Source: Orobanche coerulescens (Eukaryota > Streptophyta > Magnoliopsida > Lamiales > Orobanchaceae). From it: a DNA stretch of 64,000 nt. Below are positions 3,628 through 49,620 of this stretch, piece by piece. The position numbers were made by a program, and so were the translations under genes. The stretch covers positions 169,565,965 to 169,629,964 of the forward strand of contig CM065802.1 in assembly GCA_033398695.1 (NCBI GenBank). Reading direction: 5' to 3'. The notes under the pieces were generated by a model. It searched no databases. It was not told where the DNA came from and saw only the letters and a list, made by a program, of their open reading frames with translations. The number at the start of each line of letters is the position of its first letter. Position 1 is the stretch's first letter.

Positions 3628-3909
3628 TTACGGCCGTAAGGGCCGAGAGTTACGGCCGTATGGCGCCTGGCAGCTTCCGGACGAATGCCAGTTACGGCCG
3701 TAAGGCGCGATCGGGTACGGCCGTACGTGCGCTGGGCATCTTCCTGACGAAGGCCGGTTACGGCCGTAATGTGTGCCAGTTACGGCCGTAAGTGTCCGAC
3801 AGGTGCTGGGCTGATTTTTTGACGAATGCCGGTTACGGCCATAAGGCCTGCCGAGTACGGACGTATGGGCCGAGTTACGGCCGTAAGTCACTGCCGGTTA
3901 CGGCCGTAA
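3628..3909 (+). promoter_or_regulatory. K1 U3 array of ten TTACGGCCGTAA palindromes
   Basis: Perfect 12-bp palindromes TTACGGCCGTAA start at 3628, 3692, 3758, 3780, 3875 and 3898. One- or two-base variants, or a 10-bp core, lie at 3650, 3716, 3833 and 3856. They form five pairs with in-pair steps of 22, 24, 22, 23 and 23 bp. The last ends 20 bp before the TATA box. The position fits upstream activating sites of the LTR promoter; the binding protein is unknown. Confidence 0.85.
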
Positions 3910-3928
3910 GTGTCCGGCAGTGACCGGC

Positions 3929-3937
3929 TATATAAGG
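3929..3937 (+). promoter_or_regulatory. K1 LTR TATA box
   Basis: TATATAAGG lies immediately downstream of the palindrome array and about 840 bp into the LTR. Transcription would be expected to start about 25-30 bp further on, near 3960. Confidence 0.7.
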
Positions 3938-4927
3938 CCTGGCAGCCCATTTTTGTTCATTTCCTCACTTTTCTTGCGGCTATCGGACGGGTGCGACGGG
4001 AAATCGAGTTCTTGGTCGATTATAATCATTTCCAAGGCATTTTGGAAGATTCTTGTTGATTATATCATCATCCAATCCGTGTTCTTCGTCGAATCAAGGT
4101 ATATTCTTGATTTTCCTTCAGGTTGACATTTTGGAGAAATTGTTCTTGATTTCGTTTCTAATCCGATTTTGATACATCGGTTGGTGTAGTATGATGTTAT
4201 TAATCGTGTTCTATGGGTTGTATATCCATATATCGAGTTTGTTTAACTCGATTGATGATTCGAGTGTTCTTGGGAATTATTGAACATTTAGTGTTCGATT
4301 AAATGTCCCAATGAGTTTCCCTTCGATAGTTTGTTGGGATTTCCGTTGTTTTGGCCTTGATTCTCGTTGTAACCATGTGTTATTGTTCCTTCCGGAGGTT
4401 TATAGGTGTTCGAGGATTCCGATGTTGAATCCTGTTTGGTGATTGATGATTCGTGTGGTGTTATACTCGTAATACTCGTGGTGCTATCGCGTTCTTGATA
4501 TTGTTCGGGGGTTCGGGGCTATTCGACCGCGTCCTATCCGTCGTCTTGTTGCGATCGTGATTTTGAGGCAAGTACCTTGTCCATATAATTCTTGTTTTGT
4601 GGATACGATAATTAGTGATCGTCTAAATGTGGTTGTTTGGTCGTTTGAATTAAACTTTCAAAAGATTCGGTTTAGCCTTGTTAAAGGCTTGCTTTCAAAA
4701 CACGTGTGTTTTGTGAATGGTGTGGTTTGCAAATAACTATGTGAATTCTATGGATATGTTTGGTATTGATGTTGCACTTGGTATTGCGTGTGGATGTATA
4801 TTATTTCTTTTCGGTGCGTTGTGGATTGACGTGGTGTTTTGCTAAGTGTTTGATGCCTCTGAGCGAATTGTTTGAATATCCTTGATGTGATATGTTATTT
4901 GTGTGAATGTGTGGATATGGTTGAAGG

Positions 4928-5261
4928 TCTACGGTGACACATGGCACGTGATCATGTGGTCAGGATGCAACAAGTGATTGATCCAACCGTGAGAGCCTGA
5001 GATAATCTACGGTGGCACATGGCATGTGATCATGTGGCCAGGATGCAACAAGCGATTGATCCAACCGTGAGATGTGTGTGATTTGTTTAGCTAGCCAGCT
5101 CGGGAGGGTCCTTAGAGGCCTCGGGCAGGATCAATGATATTACTCTGTTCCCAAGGCGATGCATGTGTTGTGATTTGTTTATCTAGCCAGCTCGGGAGGG
5201 TCCTTCGAGGCCTCGGGCGGGATCAATGGTATTACCCTGTTCCCACGGCGATGCTTGTGCA
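4928..5261 (+). repeat. K1 LTR minisatellites (78 bp x2, 92 bp x2)
   Basis: A unit starting TCTACGGTG recurs at 4928 and 5006 (78-bp step). A different unit starting GTGATTTGTTT recurs at 5078 and 5170 (92-bp step) and contains GAGGCCTCGGGC. The other LTR families carry different short tandem repeats in a comparable position. Confidence 0.8.
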
Positions 5262-5620
5262 TGATTACGTTGTGTTGATTTTATATCCGTCGAGGATACG
5301 TGATGTTGGGCTCTGGCCCTGTGAATTGTTGTCGGTTTTCTATCTGCGAAAACAAAACCTTTGGGCTGTGACCCTGTTGATTTTGGAAAGAAAAGGATTT
5401 GATAATCCTAAATTGTTTTCTATTAAAACTCTTGATGGCATTTTAAACCGTTTTATAAATTGTTTTCCCTTGATTTGTGATCTTTCGGTTTTGAAATGTT
5501 TTACCCAAACTCATGCCTCGGGAAGTACTTTTCGTTACTTTGGACTTTTGAGGATTCCTGATTATTGTTATTCGTGGAACTTGAATTATATGGCTCGTAT
5601 TTGCACTTTGTATTTGCACT

Positions 5621-5662
5621 AGCAAAATAGTGGAGTTTTGCTAACCCCCGAGTATTCGGGGG
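5621..5662 (+). other. K1 LTR conserved double hairpin
   Basis: Hairpin I pairs AGCAAAA (5621-5627) with TTTTGCT (5636-5642). Hairpin II pairs CCCCCGA (5645-5651) with TCGGGGG (5656-5662) around a GTAT loop. The same pair of stems, with compensatory changes, is present in every Tekay-like LTR of the window, and lies about 25 nt before an acceptor-like CAG/GT. Confidence 0.75.
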
Positions 5663-6018
5663 GTGGATGTCTGTTTTTGCATTCAGGTTTGGGAGCATAA
5701 CACAGGGTCGGCGCGAAGGATGATGAAAGATGAACGATACTAATCACACGAGGATCCATATGAGGTCTTTGGTTTAGTTGTATTTTATTTCATTTGCAAG
5801 ATTCTTTCCCCGCCAGACGGAGTGTGTTGTATTCGACCCCTGCGTGGGCATGTATTGTAATTAAGTTGTATGTATTTATTGAAAGACCAAATCGGTCTAC
5901 TGAGTCATTTTAGCCTTAAAGGCATTGTTGAGTTGTTCGGTTTTGTTACCAGCCTGGTAGAACCTTGAGGAAAGGTTCTGCGGCGTGTAATATCTCTGAG
6001 TGGATTGGGGGTGTTACA

Positions 6019-6115
6019 ATTGCATTCATACAACGGAAAAATAATGTTGTTTGTATTCATTCAACATAACTTTCAAGTATGAACGTTTAGCAACCGAATA
6101 ATAATAATAATGATG

Positions 6116-6157
<42 letters not shown>

Positions 6158-6316
6158 GCTGTAACACTAATACTAGAAGTAACAACAATATCCATGGGGA
6201 GAAGCAGCAACTAAAAAGCAATGGATTAACCGGAAAACCAAACTTGCTAACTAACAGGATATATGTATTCAATCATATTATCAAAGAAACATAGTAAGAA
6301 AAGGCGTGTCAAAAAC
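6019..6316. repeat. Host flank with (AAT)n microsatellite
   Basis: Noncoding host DNA. An (AAT)n tract, broken once by TGATGAT, covers about 6098-6157. The stretch borders the K1 LTR end at 6018 and the first phosphatase exon at 6317. Nothing else recognised. Confidence 0.7.
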
Positions 6317-6559: not shown

Positions 6560-6989
6560 CTGGGAGATGGACAAAGCGCAGTCAGGATGCTACAACTTCA
6601 ACAATATAAAGGGCAATGGTCATGATTTCTGATTTATTACTTTCGACCATTAATTCAAATAAATTCTAAAAGAAACGACAGAAAACGAAAATTTTATTTT
6701 TCAATTGATTTTTAGTATCACAATTTTTTTAAAGAAGCTAACATAGAACTTCATTTGGTTTATTGAACATTCACATTTTCAAGAAACAAACTTCCTTATG
6801 CTGTTCTACAGAACATGATGGCATCAAAGTTCATATTGATCAGAAACTGTGCCATCTAGGAACTTGAAGGTAGAAGGAAAGATGAACCAAGCAACAATAT
6901 TTTATAATTCATCACTATTTTTACATATATATATATATATATATAACCCAGATATTATTTCTAGAGTATCATTTACATGGGAAGGATAC
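6560..6989. other. BSL pseudogene intron with (AT)n tract
   Basis: AT-rich sequence between two phosphatase exons. An (AT)n run lies at 6925-6945. No other feature seen. Confidence 0.6.
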
Positions 6990-7160
6990 CGTATTTGGTA
7001 CACTGTTTATAGACATTTGCCGATCTAAAAGCTTCCTAGCTGCCGTTACACATTCTGAAGATCCATAACTGACCCACCTGCCCTCACTTTCGAACTGATC
7101 AATCGAAAGCTGTCTGACCATATCACCTAAAGCACCACCAGTCTCTGTAGCTACAACTAC
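6990..7160 (-). pseudogene. BSL exon: linker before phosphatase domain
   Basis: The 171-nt block starts after TTTGTAG (acceptor) and ends at ACG/GTATCC (donor). Its 57 residues run from VVVATETGGALGD to MSINSVPNT. It joins in phase 0 to the downstream block at 6559 and shows no internal stop. Confidence 0.8.
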
Positions 7161-7430
7161 CTACAAATGTATACATAACAGATAACTGATCAACAACTCA
7201 ACTCTAACCGAATTTAATGCATTCATTATCATGACACTGACAGCACGATGATGAAGCCTAACTCCAGCAGGGGCAGAATTGTTCGACATTACAGAATGTG
7301 GATTGATCAAGGTAGATATTTGTTTTCAACTAGGGGTAGCCTCGGCCCCACAATCTCTATCGGGCAGCTCAACTTCTCCATTAACTTGCCGAGCCTTAGC
7401 AGCCGTCAATGCGGCAGTAATAGCTCACTT

Positions 7431-7755
7431 CATGCGAAATTTCAACCAAGTACTCAACGCCTTTGGTCATTCTTCTCTACATTATTAGCATACTTAGTAT
7501 CAGAACAAAAGCAAACATCATAGCCAAATACAGAATTATGCAGCCCGACAAAAGGCAAGGGAAGATTCATTTATCGGTAACCTTGCATCGTTGCATTTTC
7601 TATGCTTATATCTGTATAAATATCACCATTTATAGGGGGACAATAGGGTTTCCTACCACAACAGCACAATCAGATTATGAACTTATATTTCATCTTTAGG
7701 TCTTAATAATCAAGCAAACATGGGCTTATTTTATATAAGCCAAAATATATAGGCT
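7431..7755. other. Host noncoding flank left of K2
   Basis: AT-rich DNA between the BSL remnant and the K2 target site. I found no convincing further kelch exon or other gene. Confidence 0.5.
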
Positions 7756-7760: not shown

Positions 7761-10099
7761 TGTAATATCCGCAATTTCGATTTCCGGTCATTTCTTTTTT
7801 TTGGCGGGAGTCCGTTTTGATGACTCGCTTATGACCGTTTCGTCATTCTGAGAATGATTAATTTTGTACTTTTTGGCATCCGAGTTCGTTTCTGTGTTGT
7901 TTTGTTGAGTTCCGTGCTTCTTAGCAACTTTTCCGCATTTGAGTTCGATTCTTACGAATCTCGTTCGAAACTTCTGTTGCGAGTTTCCTGTAATTCAGTT
8001 TAACTTTTTTAGACGTGTTGTCAACTTCGGTTTGGTTATTCGGTCACGTATTGTGATTTTCGGGCATTTTGGGCCATTTTGTAATTTACCCAAAAGTTGT
8101 GGGTATCCGCATTCTTATTTGTTGTCTTGACCCTTTTGTCCGATTCGTTCCGTATTGTTGATTATGACATGATGGGTATGATAAATCTTAATATTATTCA
8201 TGTGTTTAACATTATTTAATCAATTGTTCTTCGTCGAATCAAGGTATATTTCTTGATTTCCTTCGAGTTGACTTTTTGGGGGATTTGTTCTTGATTTCAT
8301 TTTCCATCCGTTTTTGATGAACCGATTGTCGTAAAATGATGTTTTTAAACATATCCTATGGATTGAATATCCATATTTCGGTTGGGAATTCCATTTTCAT
8401 GTTTTCTCGGGTCGATTCGTGTTCTTGGCCGTTTTGGGGGAAACCCTTGAACTTTCATCGTTTGTTACTTGAATTCAGCGGCTTTGGGTTGTACTTTGGA
8501 ATTCATTTTCGTTGTTCTTGTTGTCGTTCGTAGTTTTTTGTTGCGGGTTGTCGTTCGGCGGAGTCGGCGGGTTCGTAGTCGGTCCGAGTCTCCTCACTTC
8601 GGTCGATTCTCCGCATTGTGATTATTCGAGGCAAGTATCTTTCCCATACATTTCATGTTTCATAGGCAAAATTATTGGTAAATGATTTTATGTAAAATCC
8701 GGATGTTTAATGAATGTTAAAAGTATCGGTATGTTCTCGATAAATGCTATCTTTCAACGAAAACTCGGATGCTTCGTGAATAAGTGTGTTGTTAGCCTTT
8801 GTGTGTTAACTCTGTTGGTTGAAAGATTTATGATCACATTTAGTGAATGTAATAAACCGTAATCATTTCCCAAGGATAACATGTTGTTATGTGTACTTGT
8901 TCGGTGAATATGTGATGGGTGATAGTGGTTGTTACTCCTTTGAAAGGAACTTGTGATGCTTAATGTTGCTTGGATTGATAGTTGATTATTGTTGTGTGCT
9001 TGTTGTATGTGATGTGCCTCTAGGTAGGATTGTTGAATCTCTGGGATCCGTACTTGCTAGTATGGGTCGGGCATGGCCGTAGGGTTATCCACCAGGTATG
9101 TCTTGCGGGACTCCGAGGTTCGTGGCTTGTTAGCCCGATGCCGAGCTAACTGATGGGGTTATCGTCGGGTATGTCTTGCGGGGACTCCGAGGTTCGTATC
9201 TTATTAGCGCGATGCCGGGATAACTTACGGTTGTGGTTTGGTTAAGTACGTATCTGTGCTTGTAGTCACGTGACTATCGTTACGGTGACATGTGGTTTGA
9301 TATAGTTTCCCTGTGGGTTATTAACTCGGGTTTGTTCTACGGGAGCATCTGAGGTCCGTGGCTTGCTAGCACGGAATGCGAATAATCTGTGGAAATAGAT
9401 TGTTATGGTATGATCGGGTCATGGACCCCGCGTGTTGTTATCGTAATTTTGTTTTGGGAAAATGACTTTTGGGATGTGTCCCTAAATGTTTTCGAAAGGC
9501 TTGAGAGTTCTTAAAATCCCAAATGTTTTCAAAACTCCCGAGATCGTAAAATGTTTTTACAAGATGCATATCGGGTTTACCCCTATCTTTCGATTTAACC
9601 GTTTTGATCAAGTGATTTACCTCGGGACGTATGTTTAGGATTATCTTGTTCCATGGAGTATGATATGTATGTCTCATTTTCTTATTTTATACTTGCACTA
9701 GCAAAACAGTGGAGTTTTGCTAACCCCCGAGTATTCGGGGAGTGGATGTCTCTATTGCATTCAGGTTTTGGAGCATAGCACAGGGTCGGCATGAAGGATG
9801 ATGAAAGATGAACGATACTAATCACACGAGGACCTGTTGATTTCGTATTGGTTTAGTTGTATTTTATTTTCCGCTGCAGTATTCTTTCCCCGTTGTACGG
9901 GAGTGTGTTGTACTCGACCCCTGCGTGGGCATGTGTTGTGATTGAGTTGTATGTATTTATTGAAAGACCAAATCGGTCTACTGAGTCATTTTATCCTTAA
10001 AGGCATTGTTGAGTTGTTCGATGTTGTTACCAGCCTGGTAGATCCTTGAGGAAAGGTTCTACGGCGTGTAATATCCCTGAGCGGATTGGGGGTGTTACA
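7761..10099 (+). repeat. K2 5' LTR, promoter region deleted
   Basis: Starts TGTAATATCCGC and ends GGGGGTGTTACA. Compared with the 3' LTR it lacks the block equivalent to about 12853-13591, with the junction near 8137 at CCCTTTT/GTCC. The missing block holds the TATA box and all ten upstream palindromes. The AG/GCAAGTA site (intron start 8631), double hairpin (9700-9740) and acceptor-like CAG (9764) are kept. Confidence 0.88.
9700..9740 (+). other. K2 5' LTR double hairpin
   Basis: AGCAAAA at 9700 pairs with TTTTGCT ending 9721. CCCCGA pairs with TCGGGG around GTAT (9725-9740). An acceptor-like TTCAG/GT follows at 9764. Confidence 0.7.
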
Positions 10100-12480: not shown

Positions 12481-13053
12481 TGTAATATCCGCAATTTCGA
12501 TTTCCGGTCATTTCTTTTTTTTTGAAGGAGTCCGTTTTGATGACTCTCTTGTGACCGTTTCGTCATTCTGAGAATGATTAATTCTGCACTTTTTGGCATC
12601 CGAGTTTGTTTCGGTGTTGTTTTGTTGAGTTTCGTGCTTCTTAGCAACTTTTCCGTATTTGAGTTCGATTCGAATCTCATTCGAAACTGCTGTTTCAAGT
12701 TTCCTGTAAGTCCGTTTAACTTTGTTAGACGTGTTGCGAACTTCGGTTTGGTTATTCGGTCACGTATTGTGATTTTTGGGCGTTTTGGGCCATTTTGTAA
12801 TTTACCCAAAGTTGTGGGTATCCGCATAAGTATTTGTTGTCTTGACCCTTTTCATGGTCGCGTGTGATTAATTGTTGCATGATATTTCATTTCGGGACGA
12901 TGTCGCTGTCCGCGAGCATTTCTTCGTGTTCGTTCCGTGCGTTTTTGGGAATCGAGTCGCTAGGCCACTACAGCTGGGCGCTGGCCAGACGGTTGCGGGA
13001 GGAACCAGCACGGCAGTTGGGCGCTGGCCGGACGGGTGCGGAAGGTACCGGCA

Positions 13054-13350
13054 TAGCGTACGCTACTACCGGGAGAATGCGCGCGCTAACCGGCAGGCGT
13101 AGCGCACGGTATGCGGCATCCAGTGCGCGCTACCTCGGCCGGGCAATGGGGCACCTGAGGTTCTGGACTCCGGAGGGTTGGCAAGTAGCGCACGCTGGGG
13201 CCGGTCTCTGCGCACGCTAACCAGCAGACGTAGCGCACGCTGCTCGGCAGCCAGCGCGCGCTACCGTGGCGGGGGGATCGGTCCAGGAGGCTCTGGATTA
13301 GACCATGGCCGGCCCGCTAACGCACGCTGCCGGCACCCTAGCGCACGCTA
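13054..13350 (+). promoter_or_regulatory. K2 U3 array of ten TAGCGCACGCTA-like palindromes
   Basis: Twelve-base CpG-rich palindromes or near-palindromes start at 13054, 13077, 13100, 13121, 13186, 13208, 13231, 13252, 13318 and 13339. Steps are 23, 23, 21, 65, 22, 23, 21, 66 and 21 bp, so most are about one unit of 22 and two are about three units. They form five pairs, as in K1, although the motif is different. The TATA box follows the last copy by about 12 bp. Confidence 0.85.
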
Positions 13351-13362
13351 GGGCGGCCAGCC

Positions 13363-13369
13363 TATATAT
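13363..13369 (+). promoter_or_regulatory. K2 3' LTR TATA box
   Basis: TATATAT follows the palindrome array; the 5' LTR copy of this site is deleted. Confidence 0.65.
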
Positions 13370-15155
13370 TTGACCGAGCAGCCCTGTTTCCAACCATTTT
13401 TCATTTCCCATCTTTCTTTTCCGCGACAAGAGATTTTTAGAGCGAGGAGACATGTTGTTGAACAACAAATCCATGAAGTTCTTGAGTTCATATCATTGAT
13501 TGATCATTCCATAACATCCTTTGATCCAGCGAATCAATGTTAGATTTCCTAGAACCCTATCTTTGGGAAATTTTGGAGTTTTCGGGTTCTTGTCCAATTC
13601 GTTCCGTATTGTTGATTAATACATGATGGGTATGATTAATCTTAATATTATTCATGTGTTTAACATCATTTAATCCATTGTTCTTCGTCGAATCAAGGTA
13701 TATTTTTTGATTTCCTTCGAGTTGACTTTTTGGGGGATTTGTTCTTGATTTCATTTTCCTTCCGTTTTTGATGAACCGATTGTTGTAAAATGATGTTTTT
13801 AAACATATCCTATGGATTGAATATCCATATTTCGGTTGGGAATTCCATTTTCATGTTTTGTCGTGTCGATTCGTGTTCTTGGCCGTTTTGGGGGAAACCC
13901 TTGAACTTTCATCGTTTGTTACTTGAATTCAGCGGCTTTGGGTCGTACTATGGAATTCATTTTCATTGTTATTGTTGTCGTTCGTAGTTTATTGTTGCGG
14001 GTTGTCGTTTGGCGGAGTCAGCGGGTTCATAGTCGGTCCGAGTCTCCTCAATTCGGTTGATTCTCCGTGTTGTGATTATTCGAGGCAAGTATCTTTCCCA
14101 TACATTTCAGGTTTCGTAGGCATAATTGTTGGTAAATGATTTTATGTAAAATCCTGATGTTTAATGAATGTTAAAAAGTATCGGTATGTTCTCGATAAAT
14201 GCTGTCTTTCAACGATAACTTGGATGCTTCGTGAATAAGTGTGTTTTTGGCCTATGTGAGTTAACTCCATTGGTTGAAAGATTTATGATCACATTTAGTG
14301 AATGTAATAAACCGTAATCATTTACCAAGGATAACGTGTTGTTATGTGTACTTGTTCGGTGAATATGTGACGGGTGATAGTGGTTGTTACTCATTTGAAA
14401 TGAAGTTGTGATGCTTAATGTTGCTTGGCTTGATAGTTGATTATTGTTGTGTGCTTGTTGTATGTGATGTGCCTCCGGGTAGGATTGTTGAATCTCCGGA
14501 ATCCGTACTTGCTAGTATGGGTCGGGCGTGGCCGTAGGTTTATCCACCGGGTATGTCTTGCGGGGACTCTGAGGTCCGTGGCTTGTTAGCCCGATGCCGA
14601 GATAACTGATGGGGTTATCGTCGGGTATGTCTTGAGGGGACTCCGAGGTTCGTAGCTTGTTAGCGCGATGCTGGGTTAACTTACGGTTGTGGTTTGGTTA
14701 AGTACGTATCTGTGCTTGTAGTGACGTGACTGTCGTTACGGTGACATGTGGTTTGATATAGTTTCCATGTGGGTTATTCACTCGGGTTTGTTCTACGGGA
14801 GCATCTGAGGTCCGTGGCTTGCTAGCACGGGACGTGAATAATCTATGGAAATAGGTTGTTATGGTATGATCGGGTCATGGACCCCGCGTGTTGTTATCGT
14901 AATTTTGTTTTGGGAAAATGACTTTTGGGCTGTGTCCCTAAATGTTTTCGAAAGGCTTGAGAGTTCTTAAAATCCCAAATGTTTTCAAAACTCCCGAGAT
15001 CGTAAAATGTTTTTATAAGATGCATATCGGGTTTACCCCTATCTTTTGATTTAACCGTTTTGATCAAGTGATTTACCTCGGGAAGTATGTTTAGGATTAT
15101 CATGTTCCGTGGAGTATGATATGTATGGCTCATTTTCGTATTTTATACTTGCACT

Positions 15156-15195
15156 AGCAAAACAGTGGAGTTTTGCTAACCCCTGAGTATTCGGG
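15156..15195 (+). other. K2 3' LTR double hairpin
   Basis: AGCAAAA pairs with TTTTGCT (15156-15177). In the second stem the left arm has changed from CCCCCGA to CCCCTGA, which keeps pairing to TCGGG through a G-U wobble. Acceptor-like TTCAG/GT at 15220. Confidence 0.65.
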
Positions 15196-15555
15196 CGGTG
15201 GATGTCTATATTGCATTCAGGTTTTGGAGCATAGCATAGGGTCGGCATGAGGGATGATGAAAGATGAACGATACTAATCACACGAGGACCCGTTGATGTC
15301 GTATTAGTTTAGTTGTATTTTATTTTCCGCTGCAGTATTCTTTCCCCATTGTACGGGAGTGTGTTGTACTCGACCCCTGTGTGGGCATGTGTTGTGATTG
15401 AGTTGTATGTATTTATTGAAAGACCAAATCGGTCTACTGAGTCATTTTAGCCTTAAAGGCATTGTTGAGTTGTTCGATGTTGTTACCAACCTGGTAGATC
15501 CTTAAGGAAAGATTCTACGGCATGTAATATCCTTGAGCAGATTGGGGGTATTACA

Positions 15556-17995: not shown

Positions 17996-19581
17996 GACAC
18001 GACACAACTCATAATCATCAAATGTCGAGCCATTCCACATTACACCGAAATGTATAACCAAGTATGTAAATTAAAACGACACAAGTATCATAATCATCAC
18101 GACAACTCAACACTGACCAAACACACCCGGCACAACTTAGATGATTAACACAACCAACACAATTCCACGACGTTGTCTAAGTGAGGGTATTATCGCTACC
18201 ATCAATTGTTCATAATAATCAATTCATACGAAGCATATCCTCGAAAGTAAAACAATGCATCACAACCATAACACGACGTCCCTATTCACAAGACACAATT
18301 CGTATAGTAAAATACTTTCCTTAATAACCGCTACCGAATACTCCGAAGAACACGGTTCGACCGGGAAGCTCGGACCCCAAAAAGACAACGAACGGAAGGG
18401 TTTCGACTCGAGTTCTTCACAAGAATTTCGTCCCTAAGTCATACCAATGATAAATCAACAATCGTACGATGAATAATAATCAAACAACGCCCAATACCCC
18501 CTTTAAGACCTTTCATCGGACACCTTCAAGGCGTCAATTAAGAACTCGATCGAAACGACGAATCGATACGATCCAACCATGGAATAACAAGGGAAATGGT
18601 GTAATACATCTAAATAATCATCAATCCATCACAATCCTAAGTTAAATCGGATTAAACGGACGAAATCCAACAAAATCCCCAAATTCCCCAAAACTAGATT
18701 TATAGAAAATCTAACCTTGATTCGGTCGATCGGGGGAGGTTATGGAATGATTAATCGATGTTAGAAGCTCAAGAACTTCGTGGATTCACCACCTGACAAC
18801 ATGCCTTCGACCTCTCCAAGCTTCCAGCCGCGGAAGGAGAAGAACGAAATGAAAAACGGGTGAAGAAGTAGCCTGCCCGACCATATATATATCGCCCTGA
18901 CGCGACGCACGCACGCACGACAGGCGCGTCGGTCGCGGCGCGCCACCGCCAGACCGCCGACGCACGAGCACCGGGCACGAGCACTCGCCGCGTGCGCAGG
19001 TGCCGTGGCCGCACGAGCACCGGATCGCGGCGTGTACTCGTGGCGCCACGCCAGGCGCACTGGCCGGTCCTCGCCGCACGTGGCCGGCCCGTGTTTAGCC
19101 GCCATGACTCGACGACTCAATTCCAAAACGCATTTAACGAACACGATGAATAGTACAACATTCAAAAAATGAGTGAAGCACTAAACAAACACATGATTCC
19201 GACAACCCGAAGGTTGAAAGGACGATACGAAGGCATACACCCCAAAACTTTGGGATTTTACGAAAATGGGCCAAAACGTCCGAAATACACGATACACGAT
19301 CGAAACACCAAACCAAAGCTCGCAACATGAATAATAACATTCAATGAACTTACGAGAAACTCTAAACAACTGTTTCGGACGAGATACGCAAGAATCGAAC
19401 TCAAGTGCGGAAAAGCCGCTTAAGAACACGGAACTCAACAAAACGATACTGAAACGAACTCGGATGACAAAAAGTGCAGAATTAACCATCCTCGAAATGA
19501 CGAAACGGTCAGAACAGAGTCTCTAAGATGGACTTCCGCCAAAAAATAAAATTACCGAAAATCGAAATTGCGGATATTACA

Positions 19582-20370: not shown

Positions 20371-21261
20371 TCACCGAGAAGGTCCCATACTCGACTGATA
20401 CGAGGGTCGAGGTTTAGGAATCCCAATTCCCACACTTCCCGATGCATCATCGGAAATATTCTGCTTCTTCGCTACCAATACAGACTCTGTAGACATCATA
20501 GCCATTTCAAATGCTAAGGCTCGATCTTGATAGTCCTTCAACGTTGTACACATAAAAAGGGCCATACACTTCCGAACCTGAGGTTTCATACGCATATCAA
20601 AGTAACGGACCTTATCTGTCTCACTTCGCACTTGATCTCGAACGTAACACACCTGTCGATTGTAATCGACTATTGCTTGAGATATAGACACATCTCGGGG
20701 TGTAGCCGAGAAAAACTCGACAATTCTACATTCCTTAATAGGCGACGGGCAATACTCGGCCTCCATAGCGGTCTTGAATTCAGCCCAAGTAGCGGTACGA
20801 TCGCTAGGCGCTACGGCCTCCCACCAGTCTGCAGCTTCCCTGTCGAGCAGGTATTGAGCAATAGGCACTCTTCTCTCATCGGGACAAGCTATGGCATCAA
20901 ATGTTCTGTCCAACTGGAAGAGCCAGTTCTCCCAACCTAACGAGTCCGAAGAACCTACAAAACGGGGCGGGTGCATTCTCATCACACCTCGTAACCACTT
21001 ACTAGCTCCATTATCTTCATCTAGGATCCCATCCCGGTGTATGGTCTGATTCATATGTTCCAACTGGTCAATCACATAACGAAGAATGGTGGCGGCGCCA
21101 ATGTCAGCATTTTCCCCAGTTGATTGCCTCTGCTCATGCGATTGGTCATCTTGACCACCTGTACTGAGCTCATTGGTGCTCGACAACGAGCGAGTCGCCC
21201 TCTCATGCTCCTGATTCCGACCTCTACCACGACCACGCTCTCGACCTCTACCTCTCAGCAT
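20371..21261 (-). CDS. K3 gag, capsid region
   Basis: The 296-codon reading starts MLRGRGRERGRGRGR, the Arg/Gly-rich start also seen in K4 gag. The retrotransposon_gag core spans about residues 85-210, with RMHPPRFVG, WENWLFQLDRTFDA, AADWWEAV, TWAEFKTAMEAEYCP and the coiled part LAFEMAMM. The product would form the particle that packages element RNA. It ends at an in-frame TGA just before the zinc knuckles, which continue in the adjacent reading. The 1.7 kb upstream to the LTR is untranslated leader. It could be a truncated capsid-only protein, but loss of the knuckles argues for decay. Confidence 0.82.
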   Translation of the reverse strand: MLRGRGRERGRGRGRNQEHERATRSLSSTNELSTGGQDDQSHEQRQSTGENADIGAATILRYVIDQLEHMNQTIHRDGILDEDNGASKWLRGVMRMHPPRFVGSSDSLGWENWLFQLDRTFDAIACPDERRVPIAQYLLDREAADWWEAVAPSDRTATWAEFKTAMEAEYCPSPIKECRIVEFFSATPRDVSISQAIVDYNRQVCYVRDQVRSETDKVRYFDMRMKPQVRKCMALFMCTTLKDYQDRALAFEMAMMSTESVLVAKKQNISDDASGSVGIGIPKPRPSYQSSMGPSR

Positions 21262-22985
21262 ACTAAACGGCCACCGATCAAAACAACAAAATAAATATCA
21301 CATAATCAACATAGGGCAACAAACAGCAGCATAATAAAGTATTCACTCCAAATCATCACACGAGTACACGAACTAAAACTGCAATAATAGACTTAAATTC
21401 ATAAGTAATTCGCACGGTTACACCATCAGAGGTGCACGACTTTTACCAAAGTAAACACAGTCAAGACTACATACATGTCATTGAAATCAGGTACTTGTCA
21501 CATTCTTTAAAAATAATTTTTTTTTTCGAGGTATTTGTTCGAATGATAATATTTTAAAATTTGTGAGTTTAAAAGATTTTGATGAAATGAAATTTTTGAA
21601 AACATTTTTAATACCTCGTCATTTAACCAAAACCACAAACTCATTATCAAAATTGTTTTGCTTGAAGTTATTTACAAAACAACACATTGAAACTTCAATC
21701 TTCTCGATAAACGATATCCGCAAAATGGCCTTGCCAATACATATATTATTATTATCATCGTTAACGACATACAGGATATTCACAGTCGTCCCTGGCGGAC
21801 CATACGACTATATCTATTGAAAACAATTAATTGGTAGAGGGCGCGGATACAACTATAACAACAAGGTTATTACCGCGACAGTCAAAAGCTTACGGCCGTA
21901 ACATCTATGTGCTTACGGCCGTAATGGAAAACATCTTACGGCCATAAACACTAGCTGCAGGACAGCAGGATTGTCCTAGCAGCCCCGACACGGCTCCAAA
22001 GATTAAGGATCGACTCCTAACAATGTACTCCAACCTATAAAAAAAACTATAACATTCTCCGACAAGTATAACAACATAACAAACCTGTCGTAACGACTTA
22101 GTCCCAACACACAAACACATAACTTTTAAATTCCAAAAATTAGATTCATTTTGCAAAATAGAAATTTTCCAAAAAAAATCCTTTCGATCATAATAAAAAT
22201 GACGATGGTATTTTGCAATGTCCGAAGTATTTTAAAACACATTTTCCAAATACCGTCTGATGGTGTCATTTGAAAATATGTGGCCCATTTATCAAAATTT
22301 AACCGATTTTAGAATCCATACAAACTGTGGTTGGACCAAACCACCAAAATATTTTCCAAAAATCGATTTCTACAAAAATCCTCAAACCGTAATGTCCTTC
22401 AGAAAACATTCTCAAACCTACCCTTAGCGGGCAAAATTACAACATTCCAAAAACAGTCGAATTTAAAACCACCTGCTCAAACGGCAACTAGGGTCGCCAA
22501 TTCAATCAAATGCATCTCGTGGCACCAAGTTTAAACACACAACAAAATCATTCATCGGAGTTTCTCACAAATTCTACCGTCGATACCTTTTCGAAGCCCA
22601 TCAAGGTTTACAACTTTCACCCCATACCACCCACATGGTGGTTCAAAGGTAAAACAACAATACGCCCAGTTTTATACATATACTATGTGCCACAATTATT
22701 AAATACAACTATGTTACACAACACCGTGCAAATAAAATTATGCAGCGCAATTAATTAACTAAGATAAAATCATGATACACAGGTACCTCGCATAAAAGAG
22801 GAGACTTACATCCACAGGCCGCACGGATATGACGGTCGCCCATGATACTAATCTCATCCGACAACATATCCGACATGTTGTGATTACGCATAACTCAACT
22901 TGTCACCCGACATCTCGAATGACAAAACCACACAATACTCGACAAATCACGACTCGACTTGACCCAACAGCCTAGGTTTCTGCAA
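21262..22985. other. K3 untranslated leader
   Basis: AT-rich internal sequence between the primer-binding site and gag. Apart from the three palindromes listed separately I see no coding domain. Confidence 0.6.
21890..21947 (-). promoter_or_regulatory. K3 leader palindromes at 23-bp step
   Basis: TTACGGCCGTAA lies at 21890 and 21913 and TTACGGCCATAA at 21936, exactly 23 bp apart. The motif and spacing equal those of the array-family LTRs, yet these copies are in the K3 internal leader, not in its LTR, whose own motif is different. Confidence 0.7.
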
Positions 22986-24897: not shown

Positions 24898-25088
24898 ATA
24901 TATATACTACCCAGCGACGCACGAGCAGGCACGCACGAGTGGCCGATCGTGCGCCGGGTCGTGCGCGCCCACTGCCAGCAATCTGCCGGGACGCACGAGC
25001 ACTGGGAACGAGCACTCGCTCGTGCGTGTGCAGTCAGGGCCGCACGAGCACCGGATCGTGCGCGCAACTCATGCGCCACGCTCGTGCG
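24898..25088 (-). promoter_or_regulatory. K3 5' LTR TATA box with inverted half-site array
   Basis: TATATATAT at 24898-24906 is preceded (minus orientation) by about ten CGCACGAGC or GCTCGTGCG half-sites between 24918 and 25088. Two form perfect 22-bp inverted repeats, CGCACGA-N8-TCGTGCG, at 24932-24953 and 25041-25062. This is the K3 counterpart of the palindrome arrays of K1 and K2. Confidence 0.7.
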
Positions 25089-25632
25089 CACCTGGCCGGT
25101 CCCTGCCGCACGTGGCCGGCCCGTGCCTAGCCGCCATGACTCGACGACTCGAATTCCCGAAAACGTACGGAACGAACACGATGAATAGTATAACATTCAA
25201 GACACGAGTGAAGCACTAAACAAACACATGATTTCGACAATCCGAAGGTTGAAAGGACGATACGAAGGCATACAGCCCAAAACTTTGGGAAATTACGAAA
25301 ATGGCCCAAAACGTTCGAAATACACGATACATGATCGAAACACAAAAACCAAAGCTCACAACATGAATAATAACATTCAATGAACTTACGAGAAACTCGA
25401 AACAACAGTTTCGGATGAGATTCGCAAGAATTGAACTGAAGTGCGGAAAAGCCGCTTAAGAACATGGAACTCAACAAAACGATACCGAAATGAACTCGGA
25501 TGAGAAAAACTGCAGAATTAATCATTCTCGAAATGACGAAAAGGTCACAACAGCGTCTCTAAGATGGACTTCCGCCAAAAAAAATTACCGGAAATCGAAA
25601 TTGCGAATATTACAATCTTTTTTTTTTTTTTT

Positions 25633-26092: not shown

Positions 26093-26740
26093 TCAGCTTA
26101 ATGGGTCAGCTAGCCAAGTGAGCCAAGTGACCTGATGTTTGTTGCTTCTTTTCGTAACCCACAGAAATGCCGAAGACATTGTATTAAAGAACAAATCGTC
26201 ACACCTTTCCTTACACTGATTGTGAATCCAATTATTCCTAGCTTTCCAAAGGTTCCACCACCACGTGAACATAATCGCCTTTAATCTCTCGTCCTTTTTT
26301 CTTTGAAGCTGAAGACCGTCAATCCAAACCATCGTCTCTTTTGGACTAGAATCAGGGATGATTACACCAATCCACCTACTAATCTGTCTTCTAGTTTTCG
26401 TGGCTAGCTCGCATCTTTTAAAAATATGAATCGACGTTTCAATCCCATGATTACACCAAAGGCATCTCATTGTTTGAACATCGATCCCCCTAGCGAATAA
26501 ATTAGTATATGTCGGCAAACAATCTCTGAGCATTCTCCACGCAAACAAGTTGACTTTCTTTGGGACGAGAGGAATCCAACTCGTCTTATTTCGGTTTGAA
26601 ACTTGAGCTATCCTTTTCTGAACTTTGTTCCTAATTATCGCCACCATGAACTTTTCGCTCTTACCATCCAACCAAACCCAACTATCCTTTTCATCGCTAG
26701 ACAATCTGCTCGGGAGAAGACTAACCAGATCGTTGAATTG
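26093..26740 (-). pseudogene. LINE ORF2 C-terminus with zf-RVT domain
   Basis: In a shifted frame, this part contains the zinc-binding region typical of plant LINE ORF2 ends (zf-RVT): WIPLVPKKVNLFAWRMLRD, LPTYTNLFARGI, CLWCNHGIETSIHIFKRC, then WWWNLWKARNNWI. The Cys and His ligands CxxC, H and C are visible. It ends at 26093 and is followed by about 460 bp of 3' UTR and the poly(A). The frameshift relative to the RT part makes the ORF2 non-functional. Confidence 0.82.
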
Positions 26741-27942: not shown

Positions 27943-27950
27943 CCGAAAAA

Positions 27951-31023: not shown

Positions 31024-31584
31024 CTTTGAGACATCTTCGAAGAATTTGGAATGAATAACGGCTATGAACAATCCGAATGGAAAACGACGGTTCCTAAACA
31101 AAGGATCAACATAACTCAGTCCTAACGGACAATAATAGTCGAATGGAATACAGCCATAACCCCGATTACAAACTACGACAATGAATGATCAATCGATACG
31201 GGCGAGGGTTTACGCAAAATCTCCCCGAATCGATAATTCACGACTATAACTTGATGAAATGGATTAGGATTCACCAAATAAAAACAATCAATGAGGAACA
31301 ATACAACATATATGGACAATTCGGAATTAATCACGAAAAAACCCGAAAAACCCCCAAATTAGATAAGTTTAGGGTTCCTGGAGAAAATACCTTGGAATCG
31401 GATGATAGAGGATGATTACGTTGATGCTGATATGTTATCATGAGCCTACGGTGGTGGAATACAAAGAATTCTAGGATAGAAACTGAAGGGAATCACCATC
31501 TGCATCGCCCGAAGAAGAAAACGAGAGAAGAGATAGAAAATGGGGTGTTTGGATTCTGCCCGCTGTACTTAAAACAACAGGCCA

Positions 31585-31665
31585 TTATGGCCGTAACAAA
31601 TGTTACATTACGGCTGTAACAAGGCTAATATTACAGCCGTAACGAATGGGGTGTTACCGCCGTAA
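31585..31665 (-). promoter_or_regulatory. KA LTR-A palindromes, exact 23-bp step
   Basis: Four copies at 31585, 31608, 31631 and 31654 read TTATGGCCGTAA, TTACGGCTGTAA, TTACAGCCGTAA and TTACCGCCGTAA. Each has one base changed from the palindrome. A TATA-like TTTTAAG lies at about 31570-31576, just downstream in minus orientation. Confidence 0.8.
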
Positions 31666-37055: not shown

Positions 37056-38975
37056 AGTAACACCCCCAAGACTTTCAGGGCGTATTACAGTGCCGTGGAC
37101 CCCACACTTTGGAATCCACCAGGCTAACAAACCGACCCGACAAACAACAAGGACATACATCACTAATAATCGAACAATTTCTCAAACCACGACATTCAAA
37201 TAAAAGACTAAAATCCGACAATACAATCTGAAATCAAATCCATTTCCCAAAACGGGTACACAACATTAACAAATTCAAAAAGGAAGTACTCGAGTACTTA
37301 AACCAATTTCATAATACAGAAATCTCAAAACAAGACATCAATAAATAAACGACAGGACAGAACACCAATAAATGACTACTGAACAGTATCATGCTTTCCC
37401 ATCATCCTCATACGGCTCGTATGCTCGCTTGTCTCCAAGACCTGTACCTGAAATACAAAAAAAAAGTATTTCCCCCATTTAAGGGGTTAGCGACAACTGC
37501 TAGTGCAAGTACAATCCATTTGAACTACCATTCTAATCAGATGAAAATATGCGCCAAAATCATTTTAGAAATCATTTATATTCTGGAATATCTTACGGTG
37601 CACAAGCACAAAACACATTTCTCCAACAAAACATTTCAAAGTTAACCTCGGTACGAGACTCACGGCCACCGTACCCCACAGAGCCCCGCCGGACATCCCT
37701 GGGTGGTTAACCATAGTTCACGATACGAAACATACACATATACATCCGCACAACCACGAGAAGCCATAATTCAAATACTAGAACGCGTAAAAAAATGCAA
37801 AGCACTTGCCTTTGAGACATCTACGAAGAATTTGGAATGAATAACGGCTACGAACGATCCGAATGGAAAACGACGGTTCCTAAACGAAGGATCAACATAA
37901 CTCAGTCCTAACGGACAATAATAGTCGAATGGAATACACCCATAACCCTGATTACAAACTACGACAATGAATGATCAATCGATATGGGCGAGGGTTTACG
38001 CAAAATCTACCTGAATCGATAATTCACGAATATAACTTGATGAAATGGATTAGGATTCACCAAATAACAACAATCAATGAGGAATAATACAACATATATG
38101 GACAACTCGGAATTAATCACGAAAAACCCAAAAAAAGCCCAAATTAGATAAGTTTAGGGTTCCTGGAGAAAATACCTTGGAATCGGACGATGGTGGATGA
38201 TTACGTTGATGTTGATGTGTTATCACGAGCCTACGGTGGTGGAATACAAAGAATTCTCGGATAGAAACTGAAGGGAATCACCCTCTGCGTCGCCCGAAGA
38301 AGAAAACGAGAGAAGAGATAGAAAATGGGGTGTTTTGATTCTGCCCGCTGTACTTAAAACAACAGGCCGTTACGGCCGTAACAAATGTTACATTACGGCC
38401 GTAACAAGGCTAATATTACAGCCGTAACGAATGGGGTGTTACGGCCGTAACACCCTGTTGACGGCTGATCCAATTTCTTTATCTGAACCGTTCCGGACAA
38501 CTCCGAAACTCAGACCTGCTATCGAACCGAAAATACAGCTACGAAGAATATTCGATGACGAGTCTAACCGTTACAAGAAAACAACATTCCGACTACCAGG
38601 GAATCCAAAATACGACAACGAATAAGGAATTCCCTAAACTTATAGGAAATTACCAAAATGGCCCAAGTGCCCGAAAATCTCGATACGACGTCGGATTAAC
38701 AAACCGAAAGTCTCAACACGACCAACTCAACCATATGAACTTGTGCAAACCAAGAAACAACGAAAACGAACGAGTTTTACGAGAATCGAATGCACAAACG
38801 ACAAAACATGTCATAAAATGGAATCACGCAAAAACATCACCAAAACTCGTCCAAATGGAAAAACTCCAAGAATAAAGTAGATTCAAAATGTCGAAACGGT
38901 TACAAGCGAGACGATAAAAATAGACATACACCAAAAATGGAAACTGCTAAGAATAGAAAGGTACGGATATTACAT
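37056..38975 (-). repeat. KA LTR-B (shared by units 1 and 2)
   Basis: Lies between the unit 1 primer-binding site and the unit 2 polypurine tract. It has a deletion of about 60 bp near 37729 relative to LTR-A and LTR-C, in the duplicated CCCCGTCGGAC segment. Four palindromes at 38370, 38393, 38416 and 38439. The last base toward the primer-binding site differs from the outer LTR end (GTTACT rather than GTTACA). Confidence 0.87.
38370..38450 (-). promoter_or_regulatory. KA LTR-B palindromes, exact 23-bp step
   Basis: TTACGGCCGTAA at 38370, 38393 and 38439 and TTACAGCCGTAA at 38416; each step is exactly 23 bp. A TATA-like TTTTAAG lies about 8 bp beyond the last copy in minus orientation. Confidence 0.83.
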
Positions 38976-43834: not shown

Positions 43835-45807
43835 AACACCCCCAAGACGTTCAGGGCGTATTACAGCGCCGTGGACCCCACACTTTGGAATCCACCAGGC
43901 TAACAAACCAACCCGACAAACAACAAGGACATACATCACTAATAATCGAACAATTTCTCAAACCACGACATTCAAATAAAAGACTAAAATCCGACAATAC
44001 AATCTGACATCAAATCCATTTCCCAAAATGGGTACACAACATTAACAAATTCAAAAAGGAAGTACTCGAGTACTTAAACCAATTTCATAATAGAGAAATC
44101 TCAAAACAAGACATCAATAAATAAACGACAGGACAGAACACCAACAAATGACTACTGAACAGTATCATGCTTGCCCATCATCCTCATACAGCTCGTGTGC
44201 TCGCTTGTCTCCAATACCTGTACCTGAAATACAAAAAAAAGTATTTCCCCCATTTAAGGGGTTAGCGACAACTGCTAGTGCAAGTATAATCCATTTGAAC
44301 TACCATTCTAATCAGATGAAAATATGCGCCAAAATCATTTTAGAAATCATTTATATTCCGGAATATCTTACGATGCACAAGCACAAAACACATTTCTCCA
44401 ACAAAACATTTCAAAGTTCACCTCGGTACGAGACTCATGGCCATCGTACCCCACAGAGCCCCGTCGGACATCCCTGGGTGGTTAACCATAGTTCGCGATA
44501 CGAAACTCATGGCAACGTATCCCTTGAGGCCCCGTCGGACCATCCCTAGGTGAACATACATATATACATCCGCACAACCACGAGAAGCCATAATTCAAAT
44601 ACTAGAACGCGTAAAAAAATGCAAAGTACTTGCCTTTGAGACATCTTCGAAGAATTTGGAATGAATAACGGCTATGAACAATCCGAATGGAAAACGACGG
44701 TTCCTAAAAAAAGGATCAACATAACTCAGTCCTAACGGACAATAATAGTCGAATGGAATACACCCATAACCCCGATTACAAACTACGACAATGAATGATC
44801 AATCGATACGGGCGAGGGTTTACGCAAAATCTCCCCGAATCGATAATTCACGATTATAACTTGATGAAATGGATTAGGATTCACCAAATAAAAACATTCA
44901 ATGAGGAATAATACAACATATATGGACAATTCGGAATTAATCACGAAAAAACCCGAAAAAACCCCAAATTAGATAAGTTTAGGGTTCCTGGAGAAAATAC
45001 CTTGGAATCGGACGATGGAGGATGATTACGTTGATGCTGATATGTTATCACGAGCCTACGGTGGTGGAATACAAAGAATTCTAGGATAGAAACTGAAGGG
45101 AATCACCATCTGCGTCGCCCGAAGAAGAAAACGAGAGAAGAGATAGAAAATGGGGTGTCTTGATTCTGCCCGCTGTACTTAAAACAACAGGCCGTTACGG
45201 CCGTAACAAATGTTACATTACGGCCGTAACAAGGCTAATATTACAGCCGTAACGAATGGGGTGTTACGGCCGTAACACCCTGTTGGACAGCAGTCTAACA
45301 GCTGCTGTCCGAACCGTTCTAGACGACTCCGAAACTCAGACCTGCTATCGAACCGAAAATACAGCTACGAAGAATATTCGATGATGAGTCTAACCGTTAC
45401 AAGAAAACAACATTCCGACTACCAAGGAATCCGAAATACGAAAATGAATAAGGAATTCCCTAAACTTATAGGAAATTACAAAAATGGCCCAAGTGCCAAA
45501 AAATCTCGATACGACGTCGGATTAACAAACCGAAAGTCTCAACACGACCAACTCAACCATACGAACTTGTGCAAACCAAGAAACAACGAAAATGAACGAG
45601 TTTTACGAGAATCGAATGCACAAACGACAAAACATGTCATAAAATGGAATCACGCAAAAACATCACCAAAACTCGTCCAAATGGAAAAACTCCAAGAATA
45701 AAGTAGATTCAAAATGTCGAAACGGTTAAAAGCGAGACGATAAAAATAGACATACACCAAAAATGGAAATTGCTAAGAATAGAAAGGTACGGATATTACA
45801 TTCTCCC
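43835..45807 (-). repeat. KA LTR-C (shared by units 2 and 3)
   Basis: Bounded by the unit 2 primer-binding site on the left and the unit 3 polypurine tract (45808-45824) on the right. Palindromes at 45195-45275, AG/GCAAGTA donor-like site with intron start 44633, double hairpin 44247-44276. Confidence 0.87.
45195..45275 (-). promoter_or_regulatory. KA LTR-C palindromes, exact 23-bp step
   Basis: TTACGGCCGTAA at 45195, 45218 and 45264, TTACAGCCGTAA at 45241. The third copy carries the same G-to-A change in all three LTRs. Confidence 0.83.
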
Positions 45808-47008: not shown

Positions 47009-47104
47009 GTCATTCCACTAGAAATTATTTCTCAAATTTTTATACATTTTACTCGAGCCCGGATGGACTGAGTAAGGTGACGCGTTAGCCTCTCGCATAA
47101 TACT

Positions 47105-47363: not shown

Positions 47364-47690
47364 TGTAACACCCCGAGATATTCGGAATAATTACAGCGCC
47401 GTAAACCCTTTAAGTAAGGATTTACAAGGCTAAATAAAAGAAATGTAATTATAAAACATCAATACCATGGAAATTCAAGTTTACAAAACTGGTTCCAACT
47501 GGTTCAACGAGTTAATTAATACAACCATATCGAAGTGATAATAATTAGACACACGTACTCGAGTACTGAAATTGAACCAAGAAGACAAATCACAAACAAC
47601 AACAAACATCACTGAACCCCTTCGTCGTCACATCGGTACTGTGGCTGTTTCCCTGCTCCTCGGCTACCTGAACATCAAAACAAATGTCCA

Positions 47691-47718
47691 CCCCCGAAGG
47701 GGTTAGCAAAACGATGCT
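47691..47718 (-). other. K4 3' LTR double hairpin
   Basis: CCCC and GGGG pair around TTCG on the minus strand, an unusually stable RNA tetraloop. The neighbouring stem pairs AGCA with TGCT. The 5' LTR copy is at 55013-55040. Confidence 0.7.
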
Positions 47719-47851
47719 AGTACAAGTATCATTTAAACAAATCGAATATGCATCAACAATACATAACAAGATACACCACACGGACTTCTGCTACCAGAAT
47801 CCGACAATGCGAATCCAAAAGATTCCATTAACACAGCAAGGGTATTCCAAT

Positions 47852-48010
47852 GATCCAGCGCCGTCAGCATAGATCCCAAGATGATCCCGTCGGACCAACA
47901 CGAGGTGGAAATAACCAGTCCAATGATCCAACGCCCTCAGCGTAGATCCCAAGATGATCCCGTCGGATCAACACGAGGTGGACATCCGATCCAGCGCCCT
48001 CAGCATAGAT
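47852..48010 (-). repeat. K4 LTR minisatellite
   Basis: Two and a partial unit of about 77 bp, each with GATCCAGCGCCCTCAGC, GATCCCAAGATGATCCCGTC and ACACGAGGTGGA-like blocks. The 5' LTR has the same units near 55174-55332. Confidence 0.75.
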
Positions 48011-48381
48011 CGTACAACATACACAAACACAACTCATGCATACATATATGCCACATCGCTATGTCCATCGACATGAACATACAAACACCAGATAACGAAT
48101 ATCATGACAATTCAACGAAATAAATCCCATGTTCAAGAACATGAATAAACCACATGCATGCTCAAAATACCAATATTAACACATTACGATACTTGCCTCG
48201 AAAATAGCAAGAACGAAACACTTCAATGATCTCAACACACTCGAAGGCCGCCTCCTTCGATCAACATATCAAGCTCGAACCTTAACAAAAGAAATGATAT
48301 AGAATTCATCTCAAGTCGTTCATTGCCTATCAATCCGGTCAACGGCCAAAAGCTCTAAATATGTAATCTGCCTGAACTACT

Positions 48382-48596
48382 TAGCATACGCTACGTACTC
48401 TACGTAACGTGCGCTAAGTCTGTCTGTTAACGTACGCAAATGACCAAGTCTAGCGTACGCTAGACATGTACTGACAGTTCTCCCTGATCAACCGACTGAC
48501 TCGACTGGTAACATAACGTACGTTACGTACCAAACGTAGCGTACGTTAACTCATTCCCGATAGCGCACGTTAATATACATATGTTAGCGTGCGCTA
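48382..48596 (-). promoter_or_regulatory. K4 LTR palindrome cluster B (eight copies)
   Basis: TAGCGTACGCTA-like 12-mers start at 48382, 48405, 48428, 48451, 48514, 48537, 48561 and 48585; steps are 23, 23, 23, 63, 23, 24 and 24 bp. A TATA-like TACATATTTAG lies at about 48358-48370, downstream in minus orientation, so this could be a second promoter. The 5' LTR keeps the cluster (from 55704). Confidence 0.8.
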
Positions 48597-49295
48597 ACCG
48601 TGCATGTGATTTACTCGCGAGAAAACTTGATCTAATGGTGATGAAACTCATAAATTCTATGGTGATAATACATGTCATCCCCGTGCATATCATGCTCATA
48701 TGGTTTTGTGAAAGATCTTTACGGATTAAACGACTACGAGATACAAGGTTACGCATAACCATCACAACACCATAATTCATCTTGATTTTCAAGGAATATC
48801 CTAAGTTCAATCCATTACATTTCCCAAAACGTATGATTCCTTTATGTAACGACATAAGAACTTTGAAAATCTCCATATACTTGTCACAAATCGGTTTGAA
48901 GCTTCATAAAACGCTAAGAGTTCAAACACTAAAAGGTTCAATGGTTTATACGATGAATAAGTACCGAAATATCGAAAATATCCTTCTAGCACATGATGTT
49001 CGACTACTTATGAATTTAACTGACTAGGTAATCACAAAACATGATCAAAACGTCCTTCAGAATACTACTAATATTGGTAAAGAATCACCTACCTCAAAGT
49101 AGCGAAGAACATGAAGGAACTTGAAGAAAATCCAACACCGAGAGCTTGAACACCAATCTTCAATGATCTAAAATCTTCAAACTCGAGCTAGGAGGATGAT
49201 ATGAGAGGTTTGAGGAGGGAGGAAGTAACTCTCTGAGCTCAAAAATTCGGATTAGGGAACTGGAAATATCTGAATAATGAAAAAGTATGTTGTCC

Positions 49296-49303
49296 TATAT
49301 ATA
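49296..49303 (-). promoter_or_regulatory. K4 3' LTR TATA box
   Basis: TATATATA in CCTATATATAGG, next to cluster A. This site is deleted from the 5' LTR. Confidence 0.65.
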
Positions 49304-49315
49304 GGAAATGGTTAT

Positions 49316-49620
49316 TAGCGCGCGCTAGTACATATCCATAGCGTGCGCTAACGGCCATACGGAGCTTATTGACTTCACTGTACTCAGCGTTTAGCGTGCG
49401 CTATCAATATATCATTAGCGTGCGCTACCGCGTTGACTTAGCTTTTCCCGAAAGCCGTCCATGTTCATCCCGACATGATCCGACTGGAATCCTCAGCCGA
49501 TCTCACCTACCACCCTATCGCAATCATGCTGACTACGTATAGCGTGCGCTAATGTTCATGCACAGCGTGCGCTACGGATCCAAATTAGCGTACGCTACAC
49601 TTAGACGATAGCGTGCGCTA
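49316..49620 (-). promoter_or_regulatory. K4 LTR palindrome cluster A (eight copies)
   Basis: Copies start at 49316, 49339, 49392, 49416, 49540, 49563, 49586 and 49609, in four pairs with in-pair steps of 23, 24, 23 and 23 bp. Most read TAGCGTGCGCTA; the first is the perfect palindrome TAGCGCGCGCTA and one is TAGCGTACGCTA. Confidence 0.85.

Follow-up and report, generated by a model that had tools for sequence, protein, structure and literature searches.

Stepped palindrome arrays at LTR promoters in Orobanche coerulescens and a candidate family of retrotransposon-encoded regulators

Palindrome arrays in a nest of LTR retrotransposons

The window analysed here, 64,000 nucleotides of the Orobanche coerulescens genome (G000:C2:169565965-169629964), is a nest of long terminal repeat (LTR) retrotransposons, several of which carry arrays of a 12-bp palindrome repeated at a nearly constant step. 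The window LTRs begin with TGTAATA[TC]CC, in many cases with a polypurine tract ahead, and end in ...GTTACA, followed in several by TGGTATCAGAG. These ends presumably match those of Tekay/Del elements, and the name Tekay for the window elements is an assumption of the first-pass annotation, made from general features. KA, three LTRs in tandem, and K4 both lie on the minus strand, as read from their pol open reading frames (ORFs). Both have the Ty3/gypsy pol of Tekay/Del elements (RVP_2, RVT_1, RNase H, H2C2 integrase and a Tf2-1-like SH3 domain). A chromodomain match (PF00385) in K4 scored 20.5 bits, under the cut-off of 25.1, and none was reported for the KA pieces.

3091..6018, plus strand: K1 LTR (TGTAATATCC... 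to ...GGTGTTACA), placed by LTR end motifs and an upstream polypurine tract
3628..3909, plus strand: K1 class A array (TTACGGCCGTAA), five pairs, one partner degenerate
3929..3935, plus strand: K1 TATA box, 31 bp past the start of the last palindrome
12481..15555, plus strand: K2 3' LTR, array-bearing
13054..13350, plus strand: K2 class B array (TAGCGCACGCTA and degenerate copies), five pairs
13363..13369, plus strand: K2 TATA box, 24 bp past the start of the last palindrome
18880..19140, minus strand: K3 LTR, with a different repeat block (GCACGAGCACCGG...) where the array would sit
20374-21297: K3 gag ORF
21890..21947, minus strand: K3 leader class A array, three palindromes at exact 23-bp steps, between the K3 5' LTR and gag
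24900..25170, minus strand: the other K3 LTR, with split-dyad repeats CGCACGA-N-TCGTGCG
31568..31574, minus strand: KA TATA-like TTTTAAG, about 22 bp past the start of the last palindrome
31585..31665, minus strand: KA copy 1 class A array, four palindromes, steps 23/23/23
38370..38450, minus strand: KA copy 2 class A array, four palindromes, steps 23/23/23
45195..45275, minus strand: KA copy 3 class A array, four palindromes, steps 23/23/23
47364..49770, minus strand: K4 3' LTR
48382..48596, minus strand: K4 second (B/C) array, downstream of the TATA box
49296..49303, minus strand: K4 TATA box, 24 bp past the start of the last palindrome
49316..49620, minus strand: K4 class B promoter array
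54687-56493, minus strand: K4 5' LTR without most of the promoter-array block
55704..55870, minus strand: second array of the K4 5' LTR, retained

The first-pass annotation had described such arrays, stepping by 21-24 bp, and we found arrays at every position it gave. The window contains 20 pairs of similar palindromes at these steps, 17 of them exactly 23 bp apart, and ten dinucleotide shuffles contain none. Five pairs can be read in each of K1 and K2, as had been counted, with the degenerate partner in the fourth K1 pair left uncounted by our scan. The K3 leader array is present as described, and the second K4 array, which had been set apart from the arrays that precede a TATA box, indeed lies downstream of that box. 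Three motifs had also been reported. The motifs do differ between arrays, but K2 and K4 both read TAGCGCACGCTA in the LTR sense, and TAGCGTGCGCTA is the reverse complement of TAGCGCACGCTA, so that the window holds two main motifs rather than three.

Most K2 sites are degenerate: ten lie within two mismatches of class B, three of the ten have at most one mispaired base and two of the ten passed clustering. The K3 LTRs carry neither main motif and have other repeats with other spacing, one of them the split dyad. By eye, the larger gaps within arrays seem to share a short second element, CTGGACT in class B and TGACGAA in class A (for example 13139-13186 in K2 and 3802-3832 in K1). One K2 LTR (7761-10099) and one K4 LTR (54687-56493) have lost the block that holds the promoter array, or most of it, and the TATA box; the partner LTR retains the block in each case.

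Abundance, step, promoter position and class exchange

The two motifs are abundant well outside the window. Counting as a pair the same palindrome repeated 21-25 bp apart (N9-13) in the 3.65-Gb genome, we found 43,298 class A pairs (TTACGGCCGTAA) and 438,914 class B pairs (TAGCGYRCGCTA), with backward controls of zero for both. A random sample of 20 pieces of 10 kb from contig C1 (loci L016-L035, 200 kb) contains 227 sites of classes A to D at no more than one mismatch, compared to 4, 3 and 1 in three shuffles, and 15 of the 20 pieces hold at least three. A count of every one of the 4096 12-bp palindromes over 264 kb, made up of the random pieces and the window, shows that, AT runs aside, the abundant ones are class A (31), two exact class B forms (14 and 11), class D, GTGCCGCGGCAC (12), class C, TAACGTACGTTA (11), and GTACTCGAGTAC (10), which in the window lies outside the arrays. 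The palindrome repertoire is therefore small. A pattern search of viral_contigs returned nothing.

The step is sharply constrained. Among 188 steps of up to 130 bp in 18 representative LTRs, where a few steps from an LTR nested in L017 were entered twice, under both L017 entries, 114 are 21-24 bp, 128 are 20-25 bp and only two are 26-40 bp. The first 50 class A pairs listed, from 16 spacer clusters, include 30 steps of 22 bp and 18 of 23 bp. In the first 100 class B pairs listed, from 48 spacer clusters, 57 steps are 23 bp, 38 are 24, three are 22, two are 21 and none is 25. The period claimed from the window thus holds elsewhere as a constrained step, with a range of 19-25 bp and modes that depend on class (22/23 for A, 23/24 for B).

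Such arrays could in principle come from a longer unit duplicated neutrally in tandem, or be an artefact of base composition. Spacers are more alike than their shuffles (z of 3 or more) in seven of the 18 arrays, where a few spacers of the LTR nested in L017 were likewise entered twice, so duplication contributes to some of them. As the source of the step, however, simple tandem duplication is contradicted, because unrelated spacers share it: the 48 spacer clusters of the class B pairs listed lie mostly on the 23/24-bp step, and class A adds 16 clusters. This was the check that the first-pass annotation had set for its own claim. Shuffled sequence, moreover, yields almost no sites, and we consider this explanation highly improbable. 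Orientation is biased for class B (63 to 8), and dyad covariation within the motif classes shows no excess.

The larger gaps bear on whether the sites share one helical face, as had been proposed. After merging within 11 lineages that we assigned, 33 gaps from ten lineages fall at 41-46, 50-53, 63-67, 71-75 and 86 bp, with outliers at 30 and 38. The best period of these lineage-collapsed gaps is 10.6-10.8 bp (p 0.0004 against a uniform model, 0.0014 against jitter). Two observations count against helical phasing: unique gap values alone give no significant phasing (0.31), and steps of 23 and 24 bp, the most frequent, are not exact helical multiples. Because of the former result, we hold the helical phasing of the larger gaps as suggestive.

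In many LTRs the last palindrome is followed, one step on, by a TATA-like box. The best match falls 21-25 bp past the start of that palindrome in 15 of 24 LTRs and 8 of 13 lineages, a distance window chosen after the data were seen; the match is weak (5-6 of 7) for KA, L011, L002 and the class D LTR of L016. In the other LTRs the distance is 31 (K1), 19 (L006), 30 (L014), 35 (L017-8059), 33 (L017-6888), 43 (L017+1480), 58 (L021), 19 (L026) and 49 bp (L028).

This geometry also bears on a role in RNA, in which adjacent identical palindromes would form hairpins in LTR transcripts for RNA processing or act as hot spots for small interfering RNAs (siRNAs). The palindromes and their pairs are self-complementary, a role of this kind has been argued for the palindromes of maize Sireviruses, and clusters of Sirevirus palindromes do attract small RNAs (PMC5311732; PMC10760457). 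However, double-stranded DNA is indicated by the frequent TATA phase, the sharp step and, suggestively, the larger gaps close to multiples of 10.6-10.8 bp. A hairpin would not require such a step, and siRNA targeting can be a consequence of the arrays. An RNA role therefore appears improbable.

Overlaying related LTRs reveals that otherwise similar repeats can differ in array class. L014 (class A) and L023+3750 (degenerate class B) have flanks that are 89.7% identical over 331 bp. L017-8059 (class A) and K3 (split dyad) are 87.5% identical over 408 bp before the array and 80.9% over 361 bp after it, whereas between these flanks identity is 0.42-0.62 in eight of nine windows and 0.76 in the remaining one. 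K3 and L017+1480 (class D) show the same pattern of alike flanks and differing arrays. The drop in identity from flank to array is plain for L017-8059/K3, K3/L017+1480 and L003/L017+1480; for K1/K2 and L014/L023+3750 there is no plain drop, and gapped alignment gives 0.50-0.84 over the array. In four of five comparisons the palindromes resemble each other more closely than the spacers do; in L008/K1 the two are equal.

Exchange of motif class at a fixed LTR position is supported, and this part of the earlier proposal that motifs are repeatedly replaced stands; open-ended replacement is not supported, as few classes are abundant among all 12-bp palindromes. The 5' end of L017+1480 resembles K1-type LTRs and, further down, this LTR matches L023-8967 (81% over 823 bp), a double likeness which shows that these LTRs are mosaics. 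Recombination between co-packaged RNAs would be a natural route to them.

Several observations in the same DNA stand apart from the arrays. K4 (47364-56493) sits inside the third KA copy, whose homology picks up again at 56494, and a non-LTR element remnant (RVT_1, zf-RVT) occupies 26093-27963 on the minus strand. Nothing scored when K3 gag was compared to a protein database. In L024, repeated CTGATCAG palindromes at 8558-8742 separate a copia pol from the ORF that follows it and may represent a further motif class; there are not enough copies for a firm case. Pooled over L016-L035 (200 kb of transposable element (TE)-rich DNA), the observed/expected ratio of CpG is about 0.99, with no depletion. 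CpG depletion is usual in methylated plant repeats.

PF20167 genes and known systems

A candidate trans-acting factor emerged from the random pieces. They contain 35 frames of at least 200 residues; 22 were scanned with Pfam, together with three pieces from L030, and PF20167 was found at two loci, L033 and L030. L033 is a Ty1/copia element (RVT_2) with pol at 2622-4769, followed by a class B array at 4822-5006, TATATATA at 5025, 30 bp past the start of the last palindrome, and a third ORF of 434 residues that matches PF20167 (E 1.9e-12, 47.9 bits; cut-off 45). Polypurine tracts after this ORF (two AAAAAGGGGGAGA and one CAGGGGGAG, by eye) lead to an LTR from about 6759, in which class B forms a long array (6852-7653) and TATAAAT lies 51 bp past the start of the last palindrome. 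Ty1/copia pol, a third ORF behind it and a repeated polypurine tract make up a Sirevirus layout.

In L030, on the minus strand, a class A array of four pairs (9079-8850) is followed by TATTAAA, 23 bp past the start of the last palindrome, and then by an ORF split into two pieces, which match PF20167 at E 1.5e-10 and 2.4e-7, each under the cut-off. A second class A array lies at 5564-5487. The upstream integrase piece, for which no family scored above cut-off, we take to be Athila-like. The order array, TATA box, ORF is thus seen in two elements. When 28 homologues and the L030 pieces were run by tblastn against all loci and the window, the sole addition was a weak stretch in L034 (E 0.02); neither Pfam scans nor tblastn found a PF20167 gene in the Tekay-like window elements. 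All 28 database homologues of the L033 third ORF come from Orobanche species.

The core of this TE-encoded family is predicted by modelling to have a VANC21-like fold. A Foldseek search with the first model gave no E below 0.001, with VANC21 absent from the best 50 rows, and VANC21 was not one of the 14 matches of profile A1 to PDB sequences at E up to 10.

The predicted fold invites comparison to the VANDAL/VANC system of Arabidopsis (PMC5735166; VANC21-DNA structure 9lnj, listed by a fold search). Both combine a TE-encoded family with a short motif that is densely arrayed, in one orientation, in non-coding parts of the element, here in the LTR and before the ORF. In both, the motif varies between related families and sites also occur in unrelated elements. 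The carriers differ: here they are LTR retrotransposons of both superfamilies (RVT_1 in KA and K4, RVT_2 in L033) rather than Mutator-like elements, and the motifs are 12-bp palindromes on a two-turn step. No sequence match links the two systems. VANC6 affects unrelated AT9TSD1 elements that carry VANC6 motifs (Hosaka et al., 2017), which provides a precedent for motif borrowing.

Sirevirus RM boxes (Bousios et al., 2010; PMC2829016) are likewise CpG-rich palindromes upstream of the TATA box in the LTR, with extra copies before the ENV gene, and L033 and L030 share this layout. The RM boxes have a CGG-CCG core in all elements but Tnd-1, and class A shares it. They were called Sirevirus-specific among the Ty1/copia elements studied, and no common binder was found. 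The arrays described here, in contrast, have a defined step and exchange classes, and the same motifs occur in both Sirevirus-like and Ty3/gypsy Tekay-like elements.

Del (Tekay) LTRs have a plastic 5' CpG island, a CpG-rich and variable stretch within the LTR's 5' half that was suggested to aid escape from silencing (Cruz et al., 2014; PMC4029996). The string 'palindrom' is absent from the available text, and eudicot Del elements are said to have no islands, whereas the host here is a eudicot. Merkulov et al. (2024; PMC11728184) describe an Athila 3' ORF of sunflower with PF20167 and a predicted nuclear signal. That paper cites VANDAL additional ORFs (aORFs) as functional examples and reports a 5' aORF in one Tekay group; in its available text 'DNA-binding' is absent and arrays do not appear. 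Our own examination of aORFs in Tekay-like elements was through Pfam scans. In the open-licence literature, so far as available, we found no statement of PF20167 proteins binding DNA motifs or of Tekay LTRs holding such arrays.

A proposed model of retrotransposon-encoded regulators

On balance, we think it somewhat probable that the arrays are promoter-proximal sites for a few sequence-specific regulators encoded by retrotransposons, namely PF20167 proteins with a predicted VANC21-like fold. The regulators would be the third ORF, in the 'env-like' position, of a Sirevirus-like Ty1/copia element and of an Athila-like element. Each palindrome would be bound by a dimer formed through a long C-terminal helix. 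Some two helical turns would separate adjacent dimers, and a fixed step would separate the final dimer from the TATA box. Both its own internal promoter and the LTRs would be targets of the factor, which would maintain their activity or protect them from silencing. Tekay-like window elements would use the sites in trans, and swapping an array block would swap the factor to which such an element responds.

The arrays might instead be sites for a few dimeric host activators, paralogues of different specificity, with LTRs trading promoter modules for an expression niche. Such module exchange reportedly changes the expression niche of tobacco Tnt1. A small fixed motif set common to unrelated LTR families, the promoter anatomy and the mosaic LTRs would all suit host factors. 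However, arrays also precede both PF20167 ORFs, and the fold predicted for this family is one known from a TE-encoded anti-silencing protein that binds DNA. A literature search with motif strings listed papers on other subjects and matched no host motif; a motif-library comparison was not made. To our knowledge, none of the NAC, SBP, LBD, BZR and other factors considered would fit all classes. We regard host activators as rather unlikely.

The first-pass annotation had read the arrays as cis sites for a dimeric factor, either a host activator or a silencing-escape system, and its interpretation is partly supported. The constrained geometry stands, dimer binding and a regulatory function would follow from the model of retrotransposon-encoded regulators, and silencing escape of the VANC type gained support from a predicted VANC-like-fold family in array-bearing elements of the same genome.

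A bolder version, which we put forward tentatively and at somewhat less than even chances, is that the 'env-like' third genes of plant LTR retrotransposons encode VANC-fold, sequence-specific anti-silencing factors rather than envelopes, each with its own palindrome code set ahead of its gene and in LTRs, and that Tekay elements lacking the gene pirate the code and change factor by swapping arrays, forming within one genome a trans network across Ty1/copia and Ty3/gypsy. If retrotransposon-encoded regulators do bind these arrays, genes long filed as envelope-like would gain a function, and one mechanism would account for the Sirevirus palindrome boxes as well as for the plastic, CpG-rich block in the LTRs of Tekay. 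VANC anti-silencing would no longer be confined to one lineage of DNA transposons but would include plant retrotransposons that are abundant, and protein class should predict motif class, which is directly testable.

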